Assembly: GCA_947627715.1 (NCBI GenBank)
Contig: CANQXK010000013.1
Location: 1 to 59,585 of the forward strand
Reading direction: 5' to 3'
DNA length: 59,585 nt
Source of the DNA: an uncultured Oscillospiraceae bacterium
Lineage (GTDB): Bacteria; Bacillota; Clostridia; Oscillospirales; Oscillospiraceae
Position numbers and translations under genes: made by a program. A model generated the notes under the pieces. The model did no database searches. It was not told the origin of the DNA and saw only the letters and a list, made by a program, of their open reading frames with translations. The first letter of the stretch is position 1. Every line of letters starts with the position of its first letter. Shown here one piece after another: positions 32,184-36,187 of this stretch.

Positions 32184-32714
32184 TTACTCTGCTTTTGTCC
32201 ACACTATACTTTGCCTTACGCGGTCACCGTACGTTGGGACTCCATATATAGTAAGCTGTATGTAGTCATTATTAAATTCATACTCATATCTTTGTGTTCC
32301 GGCGTGATCGCCCCACCTGTCTCCATTATACGAAATGACGAGGACTCTCGTTATCTGCCCTTCCTCGATCCACCATGAACCATTTCCACACCCTTCATCC
32401 ATGGAGTGAGGAAATAGGGACGGCTCAACACCACCCGTACTCCCAAGATATTCTCCCTGGCAATATCCGTTAGCATAAAATGAGTATGTATAATCTCCCC
32501 AAGTATCATCGGTAGCTGTCCATGTACCAAGAAATTTCTCTGCCTCAGAAATCGCCTTTTCAAATGGATATTCACCGCAATAGGGACAGTATTTTATGTC
32601 CTCAGGCACTTCCTTTCCGCAATTTACACAGGTTACTTTTTTTGAACACGACACGCAACAGGAAAGGAGGGCGGCGGCAAGGGTCAAAATCAGGCTCCTT
32701 TTCATACGAATCAT
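32184..32714 (-). CDS. Putative lipoprotein with zinc ribbon, unknown function
   Basis: A 176-residue protein. Residues 1-25 (MIRMKRSLILTLAAALLSCC) are a lipoprotein-type signal with a possible lipobox LLSC. Directly after it comes a zinc ribbon CVNCGKEVPEDIKYCPYCGE (CxxC-x12-CxxC, about 29-48), a short helix and a beta-rich C-terminal part with WGDYTYSFYANGYCQGEYL and WWIEEGQITRVLVISYNGD. An extracytoplasmic zinc ribbon is unusual; these ribbons are usually cytoplasmic. The start has GGGGG 7 nt upstream; an ATG three codons later is also possible. AT-richer than its surroundings. Preceded by two large hairpins and the convergent promoter locus. Confidence 0.75.
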   Translation of the reverse strand: MIRMKRSLILTLAAALLSCCVSCSKKVTCVNCGKEVPEDIKYCPYCGEYPFEKAISEAEKFLGTWTATDDTWGDYTYSFYANGYCQGEYLGSTGGVEPSLFPHSMDEGCGNGSWWIEEGQITRVLVISYNGDRWGDHAGTQRYEYEFNNDYIQLTIYGVPTYGDRVRQSIVWTKAE

Positions 32715-32733: not shown

Positions 32734-32791
32734 TTTCCGGCAGCTCCACAGGGGCGGGGATTTTCCCCGCCCCTGTGGAGCTTGCCGGAAA
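32734..32791. repeat. Very long near-perfect hairpin in the lipoprotein leader
   Basis: TTTCCGGCA-CTCCACAGGGGCGGGGA pairs with its complement ending in TGCCGGAAA around a short loop, with only one interruption. It ends 20 nt before the lipoprotein ATG and would strongly affect its mRNA. Confidence 0.85.
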
Positions 32792-32796
32792 CGCAA

Positions 32797-32832
32797 AAAG
32801 CGGTGTTGAGCGTTCAACCTCAACACCGCTTT
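32797..32832 (-). terminator. Rho-independent terminator on the minus strand
   Basis: AAAGCGGTGTTGAG pairs with CTCAACACCGCTTT (14 bp), followed on the minus strand by TTTTTGCG. It would end, or attenuate, transcription from the minus promoter at 33045-33017. Confidence 0.8.
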
Positions 32833-32873
32833 AAAAGCAAACACACAAAACCCCTAAAACAATATTTCCGCCC

Positions 32874-32902
32874 TTGAAAAAGTGCGGAGACACAGGTATA
32901 AT
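32874..32902 (+). promoter_or_regulatory. Near-consensus promoter without a downstream gene
   Basis: TTGAAA (32874-32879), 17 nt, TATAAT (32897-32902) on the plus strand. No plausible protein-coding gene follows; the nearest plus-strand gene is over 6 kb away. Confidence 0.8.
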
Positions 32903-32908
32903 AGGAGC

Positions 32909-33115
32909 GTGGTGCAGTCGTTTTGACTGTTGTGTTGAGTGGTCGTGACACTCATCGCAGGGACATGGCGGGTTGCCGCCCGCCGTGTCCTGCCCGCTTT
33001 CGCGTTTCCAATTCTTATTTTAGCGCGTTCCTTGGTGAATTGCAAGCTTTTTCCGCAAAATATATACATATCCCACAAAAAAGGCCCCCCGGTTCCAAAA
33101 GCCGGAGAGCCTTTT
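32909..33115 (+). ncRNA. Candidate structured small RNA (plus strand)
   Basis: The plus promoter would make an RNA of about 205 nt ending at the hairpin 33079-33115 (AAAAGGC...CCGG...CCGG...GCCTTTT). It contains AGTC-GTTTT-GACT, GAGTG...CACTC, and a strong stem GCAGG(G)ACATGGCGGG against CCCGCCGTGTCCTGC with one bulge. No family was recognised: it lacks the SRP core, tmRNA tag and 6S features. Confidence 0.5.
33017..33045 (-). promoter_or_regulatory. Promoter facing the plus-strand RNA promoter
   Basis: Minus strand TTGCAA (33045-33040), 17 nt, TAAAAT (33022-33017). Transcription would run from about 33010 through the same hairpins in antisense, to the terminator at 32832-32797 or on into the lipoprotein gene. 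A 33-codon frame starting MSVTTTQHNSQN with a TTLLLYLCL core lies on this transcript but lacks a ribosome-binding site. Confidence 0.72.
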
Positions 33116-33211
33116 CCCATCTCTAATCAATCCAGCTGGCGCGTGTACTAATTACCTTAACGTGAAGGAGGGGGGTTGAACTTAATGACATTGGCGGCTC
33201 AGGGACGGGTT

Positions 33212-36187
33212 TTATTCTGTTCTCAGGGCCTCCACCGGGTTCTTTCTGGCGGCCAGTCCCGACGGGACGAGGCCGGCGATGAAGGTGAGGAGCATGGAGA
33301 TGGCCACGAGGATGGCCCCCGCTCCGGCGGGGAGGACGGCGGAGAGGTCGTTCAGGCCCGTCAGGTGGTGCAAAATGAGGTTGATGGGGATGATGATGAG
33401 GAGCGACGCCATGATACCGATGACGCCGGCCCCGAAGCCCACGATGAGGGTCTCGGCGTTGAACACGCGGCTCACGTCCCGCTTGGAGGCGCCGATGGCA
33501 CGGAGGATGCCGATCTCCTTGGTGCGCTCCAGGACGGAGATATAGGTGATGATGCCGATCATGATGGAGCTGACCACTAAGGAGATGGCCACGAAGGCGA
33601 TGAGCACGTAGCTTACGGCGTTGATGATGGTGGTGACGGAACTCATGAGCAGGGCCACGTAGTCGGTGTACTCGATTTGGTCGTCCTCGCCGACCCCGGC
33701 GTTATACTGCTCGATGAGTTCGGCGATGGTGTCCTTGTCCTCGAAGGTCACCGCGTACAGGCTGACGGTGGAGGGGGACTCCACCCTGGCGTAGCCCAGG
33801 TCCTCCATGTTCTTCTCATAGTTGGAGTCGGACACCGTGGGGGGCATGAACTGCTGATAGAAGGCCACGTACTGGTCGTCGGTGAACTGGGCCGCGGCCA
33901 TCATCATGGCAAGCTGCTCCGCCGGGAGCTGGGACATCTGGGCGGTGACCTGCTGGGCGTAGGCCTCGGCCGCCATCTGGCGGATGCCCTGCCCGGCCAT
34001 CTCAAAAAGCTCCTCGTCGGACATCTGCCCGAAGTAGCTCTCCAGCTGGGAGGTGTCGGTGACGCCCATCTGCTGGGCGTAGGACCCGGTCATCATCTCC
34101 ATGAGGCTCTCGCGGGTAAGCCCGGCCATCTGCTGCTCCACGGCGGAGGTCAGGTACTCTTCCGTGGGGACGGCGGACATCTGGATGAACAGCTCCGCCT
34201 TCTCCGCGTCCGCCAGACCCTCAAAATACGCCTTGAAATCAGCGATCTTCCGGCTATCCTCAGGCTCGGCGTACTCCGGGGTCCTGAAGGGAAGGCCCGT
34301 GAACACGTCCACGGTGTCGTCGGAGAGCTGCTTCTGGACGATCTCCTGCTTCCCCGTCTCCTCCATAGCCCAGAGGGTCAGGGCGGAGGTGTAGCCGATC
34401 TGGCCGGAGACAGGGCCGGAGGCGCTGTCCTCCGTGGGGCGGACGATGCCCACCACGTGGAGGGGCAGGCCGACGCCGGCGCTGTCATAGAGGTAGCTCA
34501 TGCCGGTGTCCGTGGCGGACAGGTCCACATACGTCTCCGTCACAGGGTCCCACTGGTAGTACTCGGAGGGCAGGATGAACTTGAAGCTTGTATCGCACAG
34601 CTCCTCATAGCTCCAGCTCAGGGTCTCGGCCTCCACGGGTTCGCCGTTCATCATGGCGCGCATGGTCTCGTTCATGTCCTCGGTGGAGATGAAGCCCAGG
34701 GAGTAGAGCATCAGGTCGGAGATCTCATTGCGGCGGTCCACGAAAATGACGATCTCGTCGTAATTCTCCGGCCACTTGCCGTACAGAAGCTCGTACTGGT
34801 CCTTTGTGGCCTGGGCCACGCCCGTGCCGTCCGCTTCCGGCAGAAGCTCGTTCCAGACGTTGAACCGCTCATACATCTGGCCCATGTTGTCAAAGTAGGC
34901 GGAGTAGTCGCCGCCGAACATACTCGTCATGGCCTCCTGCATCATGGTCATGGCGTCGGACTTCACCACGTTTCCGTCCTCGTCTTTGGTGTACACGTCG
35001 AACTTGAAGTCGTAGGCGTAGTGGACGGAGGCCACGTCCATGATGCCGTTGCCGCCCTCGTCTAAGAACTTTTTAAAGGCGGTGAGGTTGTTGGTCTTGG
35101 TCTGGGCGTTCATCATGGAGCTGAGCATATCGTACATCACGGTGGCGGAGTAGACCCGGTCCGGCTCCCGCTCCTCCTCCATGGCCTCCTGCCGGGCGTT
35201 CATGAAGCCTAAGAGCATGGAGGACATATCCACGCTCTCCGCCTCGATGGTGATGGGATAGGAGGAGAGGGTGTCCTCCTGGACCTGGTCGATGTACGCC
35301 TGGAAGCCGGCGGACACGGACAGGATGAGGGCGATGCCGATGATGCCGATGGACCCGGCGAAGGAGGTGAGGAAGGTCCTCCCCTTCTTGGTCATCAGGT
35401 TGTTGAGGGACAGGGAGAGGGCGGTGAGGAAGGACATGGACTTTTTCTTCTTCTCGGTCCTGCGCTTGCGCTGCTCCTTTTTCGTCAGCGCCTGGGCCAC
35501 GGCCTCGTCCTCGTAGGGGTCGGAGTCCGCGGTGATCTTCCCGTCCAAAAGCCGGACGATGCGGGTGGAATAGGTCTCCGCAAGCTCCGGGTTGTGGGTG
35601 ACCATGATGACGAGGCGGTCCTTTGCGATCTCCTTTAAAAGCTCCATGACCTGCACGGAGGTCTCGGAGTCCAGCGCGCCGGTGGGTTCGTCCGCCAGAA
35701 GGATGTCGGGGTTGTTGATAAGGGCGCGGGCGATGGAGACGCGCTGCATCTGGCCGCCGGACATCTGGTTGGGCTTTTTATGGATGTGCTCCTCAAGGCC
35801 CACGGCGCGCAAAGCCTCGACGGCCCTTCTGCGCCGCTCGGACTTGCTGACGCCGGAGAGAGTCAGGGCCAGCTCCACGTTGGCCAGCACCGACTGGTGC
35901 GGGATGAGGTTGTAGCTCTGGAACACGAAGCCCACGGAGTGGTTGCGGTAGGTATCCCAATCCGCGTCGTTATACTCCTTTGTGGACTTCCCGTTGATGA
36001 TGAGGTCGCCCGTGGTGTACTGGTCCAGCCCCCCGATGATGTTGAGAAGCGTCGTCTTGCCGGAGCCGGACTGGCCCAGGACGGAGACGAACTCGCTCTT
36101 TCGGAAGCTGATGGAGATCCCATCCAGCGCCTGCTGGGTGAGGTCCCCCGTTATGTAGGTCTTGGTAATGTCGGTTAATTTCAGCAT
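33212..36187 (-). CDS. MacB-like ABC transporter, ATPase fused to FtsX-type permease
   Basis: A 991-residue fusion. Residues 1-225 are a LolD/MacB ATPase: Walker [10 protein letters not shown] (about 38-46), Q-loop [10 protein letters not shown], signature [15 protein letters not shown], Walker [16 protein letters not shown] basic linker ([14 protein letters not shown]) leads to the first membrane helix ([20 protein letters not shown], about 270-290), then a large extracytoplasmic domain (about 300-830, rich in Met and acidic residues) and three C-terminal helices with the FtsX motif [23 protein letters not shown]. Such transporters export peptides or respond to cell-wall stress. No two-component system is adjacent, so the substrate is unknown. 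Confidence 0.92.

Follow-up and report, generated by a model that had tools for sequence, protein, structure and literature searches.

In the repR system of plasmid pIP501, an antisense RNA induces premature termination of the leader transcript. In the pT181 repC attenuator, the countertranscript sequesters the antiterminator via kissing hairpins, and antisense attenuation is described as a means of plasmid replication control (PMC5435934, PMC8383071). Here, we examine a locus within a 59,585-nucleotide stretch of DNA from an uncultured Oscillospiraceae bacterium (contig CANQXK010000013.1, hereafter the window), for which a sequence-only reading had proposed the layout of either a type I toxin-antitoxin module or an antisense-controlled leader. 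It is the latter that we retain: the minus-strand RNA leads into a gene for a secreted protein, both promoters are conserved, and patterns of wobble pairing point to selection on both RNAs. Drawing on comparisons among relatives and on predicted folding, we consider an antisense-RNA-controlled transcription attenuator placed before the secreted-protein gene to be the best explanation, with a probability of roughly 0.7.

The locus lies in a gene-free stretch, as had been described, bounded by the end of an ABC transporter frame at 33212 and by the start of the secreted-protein gene at about 32714; the intervening frames are mechanical only, and none is plausible. Two promoters face each other about 115 nt apart, and both are kept in relatives. 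The leader promoter, TTGCAA-17-TAAAAT (33045–33017, minus strand), would start a leader RNA near position 33010, while the antisense promoter, TTGAAA-17-TATAAT (32874–32902, plus strand), would give an antisense RNA that starts near 32909 and ends near 33010. The 32714–32184 gene has the minus RNA as its 5′ leader, to the first ~100 nt of which the plus RNA is antisense. Both promoters had been called by the sequence-only reading and were borne out by a promoter scan, as was its minus-strand terminator at 32832–32797 by a terminator scan. The two promoter-like sites found in the window, set against 1.4 expected in shuffles, are not beyond chance alone; they carry weight only because they are conserved in relatives. 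The three hairpins reported for the shared core are likewise present, and both strands fold better than dinucleotide shuffles (z of −5.9 for the plus stretch 32909–33120 and −7.1 for the minus stretch 33010–32790, the outer hairpin being included in each).

One assignment had to be revised. The hairpin at 33079–33115 had been taken for the terminator of the plus-strand RNA; the scan calls it on the minus strand only (33103–33083), where it fits the end of the neighboring ABC gene, and it is probably the terminator of that gene. Inspection of the alignment by eye did not find this hairpin at the same place in L012, L013, L015, L017 and L024, and a different hairpin stands there in L010 and L021. 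A separate repeat of ~110 bp, comprising a terminator and a conserved flank, was observed at 33057–33168 of the window; it matches sequences elsewhere in the same genome and genus (L002 at G000:C2:59153-59267, L011, L030 and L031), apparently without the antisense element.

Conservation beyond this strain, on which the original proposal had been staked, was found. A BLAST search of 60 genomes, the source genome included, gave some match in 13, all from the same genus, and the 13 near-full copies, which came from nine genomes, served to build a first covariance model of the core. This model detected the element in 105 of 400 genomes and 39 of 106 genera in a scan of the family. A second model, built from 100 copies, detected it in 55 of 394 genomes and 30 of 168 genera across the order (21 genomes from the same family, 34 from other families) and in 5 of 299 genomes across the phylum, these being the source genome and four from other classes; the genome samples of the three scans overlap, and scans of more than 40 genomes ran stricter filters. 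Judged by genome labels, ten or more families of one order have the cassette. Among the matches listed in a pattern scan of named genomes were Oscillibacter, Flintibacter, Pseudoflavonifractor, Flavonifractor, Intestinimonas and Acutalibacter, and 10 of the 11 pattern-scan loci tested (10 from genomes, 1 from a viral contig) were confirmed by the model. Strains named among the carriers are Flintibacter muris DSM 110149, Pseudoflavonifractor capillosus An827, Oscillibacter sp. 1-3 and Acutalibacter sp. 1XD8-33. The pattern scan of viral contigs furnished one stretch, which was confirmed. A pattern match on a contig labelled Akkermansia (L216) gave no model match at E 0.001 and was taken as chance.

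That no known RNA family corresponds to the element is borne out by Rfam 15 at gathering scores: tRNAs aside, neither the window nor 20 representative loci were matched. Relaxing the search to E values up to 10 returned 24 matches in the window stretch, all under the gathering score, the best of them microRNA models placed on perfect hairpins. Queried by BLAST, the window element had no match in 72,556 plasmid records and none among phages. No description of such a family was retrieved by a literature search whose coverage left most subscription journals outside, and the family, of which carriers among the Oscillospiraceae and their relatives have anywhere from one copy to dozens in a genome, is apparently undescribed.

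In the model that we favor, polymerase would start at the minus promoter and a leader of ~300 nt would precede the secreted-protein gene. While the leader is free, a candidate antiterminator segment termed AT (CACTCAACACAA, 32930–32941, minus strand) would pair with the 5′ arm of the terminator (T5, 32832–32819) before the 3′ arm (T3, 32810–32797) is made; the terminator (32797–32832, minus strand) would not form, and the gene would be transcribed. A helix termed P1 would then close the read-through leader. Its 5′ strand (GGAAACGCGAAAGCGG, 32994–33009, minus strand) sits at the inferred leader 5′ end and is complementary to 32803–32787; its 3′ strand (CCGCTTTTTGCGTTTCC, 32787–32803, minus strand) runs from the base of T3 through the U-tract into the bases that follow. 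The strong promoter inside the leader would furnish an antisense RNA of ~100 nt with three hairpins, which would meet the nascent leader, probably first via the loops of the two hairpins termed C and B. By covering AT and the P1 5′ strand, the antisense RNA would free T5, the terminator would form, and the gene would be off. What computation finds is that the promoters and the terminator are conserved, that two RNA structures are under selection, that the alternative pairings covary, that the gene context is one-sided and that the loops vary; we infer that both RNAs are produced, and that the antisense RNA represses rather than activates.

The leader terminator was identified by the scan, by its conservation and by its wobble pairs. 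A qualifying hairpin with a T-run is present in 132 of 142 distinct loci, as compared to 130 of 710 shuffles, and only 5 of the 710 shuffles possess a hairpin as strong as the locus's own. Because a G-U pair becomes an A-C mismatch when read from the opposite strand, wobble pairs show which RNA is folded. Among 124 distinct cores, counted as sequences rather than independent events and with kinship ignored, 277 terminator wobbles are valid in the leader and 20 in the antisense RNA; strand-blind hairpin detection in 137 loci gave 305 and 30, respectively. The terminator search yielded no terminator in 10 of 149 loci. The pairing tests used 131 of 139 loci, after eight with a misplaced hairpin pick (L092, L098, L166, L168, L181, L183, L188 and L192) had been dropped by eye; these eight still count among the 132 loci with a terminator. 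L172 was also dropped before folding, leaving 123 distinct loci.

The AT and T5 segments change together: CTCAACAC occurs with GTGTTGAG, CCATACAC with GTGTATGG, CCTACAC with GTGTAGG, and ATGCAC with GTGCAT. The cognate AT:T5 score was 18.35, as against 14.59 (sd 0.35) when partners were permuted among loci, and cognate complementarity exceeded 1000 of 1000 permutations, whether computed on 102 pairs or on 35 AT types; control partners failed, the value for the 5′ arm of hairpin C being reached by 106 of 1000 permutations and that for hairpin D by 995 of 1000. For P1, the cognate score over 123 pairs was 28.6, and 19.4 (sd 0.4) with partners permuted; the AT:T5 and P1 permutations both ignore kinship among loci. 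Folding of the leader as it would stand before T3 is made predicted 6.58 AT:T5 pairs, with at least four pairs in 99 of 123 loci. With a T5 of the other class, the expectation fell to 1.77 pairs (at least four in 26 of 123 loci), and with a shuffled T5 to 1.19 pairs (15 of 123).

As in pT181-type control, an intrinsic terminator stands in the leader upstream of the ribosome-binding site, and an alternative antiterminator pairing that bound antisense RNA would remove is predicted. This pairing is weak, with fewer than four AT:T5 pairs, in 24 of 123 loci, which include the close relatives L007, L013, L015, L017 and L019. The predicted terminator probability over 123 loci, a comparison made without a shuffled control, rises from 0.77 in the free leader to 0.95 in the antisense-covered leader; for the window it rises from 0.26 to 1.00. 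At equilibrium, the free leader thus mostly favors the terminator, its probability falling below 0.5 in 19 of 123 loci, and the switch would have to be kinetic, with timing deciding the outcome. The wobble pairs of AT:T5 are without leader bias (60 G-U to 93 A-C) and the bias of P1 is modest (213 to 121); most of the P1 3′ strand is downstream of where transcription would terminate. Between the terminator and the start codon, the window sequence holds a long inverted repeat, hairpin F (32734–32791, minus strand), and a hairpin at this position beats all 10 shuffles in 89 of 130 loci. The base of hairpin F, UUUCC/GGAAA, overlaps the P1 3′ strand, and the hairpin may add a further alternative pairing ahead of the ribosome-binding site. 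Downstream of hairpin F, a similar motif (approximately ATACGGGCTGACCTT) recurs in L054, L058, L064, L090, L096, L099 and L102.

The direction of the switch deserves scrutiny. In L117, L121, L123, L148, L150 and L182, an AT of CCCACAC faces a T5 of GTGCAGG and mismatches it twice; in L117, L121 and similar loci, the antisense RNA pairs with T3 where AT:T5 mismatches. Departures from Watson-Crick pairing between antisense RNA and T3 are mostly G-U (224, versus 33 A-C, over 106 combinations), and antisense:T3 pairing could be part of the reason why T5 resembles the antisense RNA. These observations would suit an antisense-activated leader, in which a T5-like antisense segment pairs with T3, opens the terminator and turns the gene on. 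We consider activation unlikely. The G-U pattern of T3 is expected anyway because T3 pairs with T5, Watson-Crick pairs are more numerous in AT:T5 (857) than in antisense:T3 (690), and the antisense RNA, being fully complementary to the 5′ part of the leader, is expected to bind there first.

Turning to the antisense promoter, 126 of 142 loci have its −35 box, which the search model does not cover, against 16 expected, and 139 of 142 have its −10 box, which the model does cover; the −35 box of the leader promoter, again outside the model, is found in 84 of 142 loci where shuffles predict 19. Three hairpins follow on the plus strand: D (32915–32929), the first after the inferred antisense 5′ end; C (32937–32953), whose loop at 32942–32948 is the hypervariable candidate recognition loop; and B (32957–32993), the probable antisense terminator, with its tail at 32994–33011. 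The T fraction in the 18 nt after hairpin B is 0.46, versus 0.25 in the rest, and at least seven T are found there in 117 of 132 loci; in the window itself, 6 of the 18 are T. Because a T-rich tail is present in most relatives, hairpin B is the better candidate for the antisense 3′ end than the hairpin at 33079–33115. Counted over the same 124 cores, wobble pairs valid in the antisense RNA exceed those valid in the leader in D (79 to 6), C (157 to 21) and B (274 to 50). Changes on both sides, that is, compensatory changes, were observed at 19 of the 23 pairs of these hairpins, and their covariation score was 0.447 versus 0.170 in shuffles, in an alignment fitted to the model.

A closer search of 18 chosen genomes uncovered 29 copies in G176, 14 in G084, 13 in G377 and 10 in G376, and loops were compared among paralogs in two of these, the draft genomes G176 and G377. 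The alignments comprised 17 of 20 fetched copies for G176 (22 of the 29 found having been fetched in all) and 7 of 12 fetched copies for G377 (13 found); those left out were more divergent. In G176, the fraction of sites differing per pair is 0.65 for the C loop and 0.34 for the B loop, as compared to 0.12 and 0.21 for the two promoter spacers and 0.00–0.04 for the P1, stem and AT segments. Each of these 17 near-identical aligned copies has a C loop of its own, and the B loop is distinct in 16 of the 17; by eye, the G176 copies L319 and L326 have the C loop in common but not the B loop. The corresponding values for G377 are 0.61 for loop C, 0.51 for loop B, 0.21 and 0.28 for the spacers, 0.29 for the P1 segment and 0.03–0.14 for the stem segments, and 7 of 7 loops are distinct. 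With the promoter spacers as a rough neutral yardstick only, the greater variation of the loops suggests selection for distinct antisense recognition; the loops would give each copy its own antisense.

Loops that diversify where stems do not also bear on transcriptional interference, by which polymerase collision would be what matters and the antisense RNA itself would do little. Promoters that face each other 115 nt apart, both conserved, are as interference would have them; the explanation is improbable all the same, because interference needs neither this loop diversity nor wobble pairs in B, C and D that are valid only in the antisense RNA. A riboswitch or a protein-sensing attenuator, with the inner promoter as a side feature, would account for a structured leader with a terminator and an alternative pairing. 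That reading is quite improbable: the hairpins that would resemble a sensor, B, C and D, have their wobble bias on the antisense strand, their loops vary freely between paralogs, unlike a ligand pocket, and Rfam returned no match at gathering score.

The gene under putative control in the window (32184–32714, minus strand, start codon chosen by eye) encodes a small protein that is predicted to be secreted, possibly as a lipoprotein, and that contains a zinc ribbon (MIRMKRSLILTLAAALLSCCVSC...; Pfam Zn_Ribbon_1, E 1.6e-6). In 13 of 13 copies from the genus, the minus RNA heads to a frame with a secretion-type start, as judged by eye; the frame is interrupted in L012 and L019. A simple automatic rule detected a signal-peptide-like start downstream of 90 of 138 distinct loci, compared with 4 of 65 upstream control ORFs, and where 450 nt were available on both sides, on the leader side of 86 of 132 loci and on the antisense side of 0 of 132. 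Among the 48 of 138 loci that the rule misses, the miss stems in some from a wrong pick of the start, as in the window, and in others from a position ahead of mobile-element or unknown genes. A Pfam scan took 95 of the 138 downstream proteins; they are mostly large, diverse secreted proteins, 24 with BspA-type leucine-rich repeats and 19 with an S-layer homology domain, and proteins of these two types probably face the environment or host. In G377, the downstream frame shown belongs to a set of similar secreted proteins in 8 of 12 copies. In L004 (contig C22 of the source genome), L014 and L022, the leader promoter and the leader ends are kept ahead of similar secreted-protein genes, while the antisense promoter and the terminator are absent, by eye; this is the pattern that escape to constant expression would be expected to leave.

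Mobile-element genes were also found downstream, namely three whose products have a phage integrase domain, two for TnpB/Cas12f-like proteins and one for a serine recombinase. The leader stands ahead of the TnpB/Cas12f-like genes in L145 and L170 (Cas12f1-like_TNB and OrfB_IS605 domains), of integrase-like genes in L125, L153 and L166 (by eye), of the serine recombinase gene in L132, and of uncharacterized genes in L155, L156 and L162, where the L155 product has no Pfam match and L156 and L162 look alike. Many G176 copies are near contig ends, and L318–L337 comprise ~17–20 near-identical dispersed copies; in 8 copies with 1.8 kb downstream, the longest frame shown is without an evident signal peptide. 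Given the contig-end positions and the absence of an evident signal peptide, part of the G176 copies may be mobile, spreading on their own.

Such copies recall an invertible promoter or a MITE, the P1 strands then serving as terminal inverted repeats of a DNA element. The P1 repeats do flank the inner promoter, and the 29 copies in one genome, many near contig ends, would fit; nevertheless, this reading is very improbable, as secreted-protein starts occur on the leader side only (86 versus 0 of 132, in single assemblies), the leader promoter, which lies outside the repeats, belongs to the conserved unit, and P1 starts at the inferred RNA 5′ end. A type I toxin-antitoxin module, with which overlapping convergent RNAs and a terminator would agree, is scarcely credible with large, diverse secreted proteins mostly downstream and a small hydrophobic frame on the minus RNA that, although its string survives with changes in 6 of 13 genus copies (L006, L007, L008, L009, L019 and L020), is lost in the other 7. 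That frame, for which the sequence-only reading had noted no ribosome-binding site, runs through the −10 box TATAAT in reverse complement.

The attenuator reading would extend to the whole family. At roughly even odds, Oscillospiraceae and their relatives hold a natural library of mutually independent antisense attenuators, with loops kept diversifying and each antisense RNA addressing its own leader only. Such a library would consist of a standard cassette of promoter, leader switch and antisense RNA, present in up to dozens per genome before surface-protein and mobile-element genes, its loops diversified by selection or by an active process. If true, this would give plasmid incompatibility a chromosomal counterpart, and the expression of surface proteins could be set one gene at a time. 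That 17 near-identical copies have distinct loops suggests that a single cell already contains many independent RNA switches of natural origin, and to make such switches is a goal of RNA engineering (PMC5435934, PMC3753616). The origin of switch independence, and how these bacteria choose the surface proteins to express, are thereby opened to test.

Compared with the described systems, the locus would follow the same attenuation logic as plasmid control, here as a chromosomal cassette before BspA-type leucine-rich-repeat and S-layer-homology proteins. With pIP501 repR, it would have in common the antisense-induced premature termination of a leader; there, the gene controlled is a plasmid rep gene. 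The likeness to pT181 would lie in an antisense RNA complementary to the leader, in kissing hairpins, and in sequestration of the antiterminator, with a terminator then forming at or upstream of the ribosome-binding site. pT181 control concerns plasmid replication and one rep gene, whereas the elements described here stand on chromosomal contigs, mostly before secreted proteins, with as many as 29 copies in one genome and loops that differ among copies, and possess an extra P1 helix at the 5′ end. In the loci tested, Rfam gave no match to a pT181/pIP501 countertranscript family, and the 95 downstream proteins scanned are mostly secreted ones rather than products of a plasmid rep gene. Engineered orthogonal attenuators of the pT181 type have been made independent of one another by changed recognition hairpins (PMC3753616, PMC5435934); here, the variation is natural, and the independence is what the loops would confer. 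The family is best read as pT181-like antisense attenuation on chromosomes, with recognition loops that are individually distinct.
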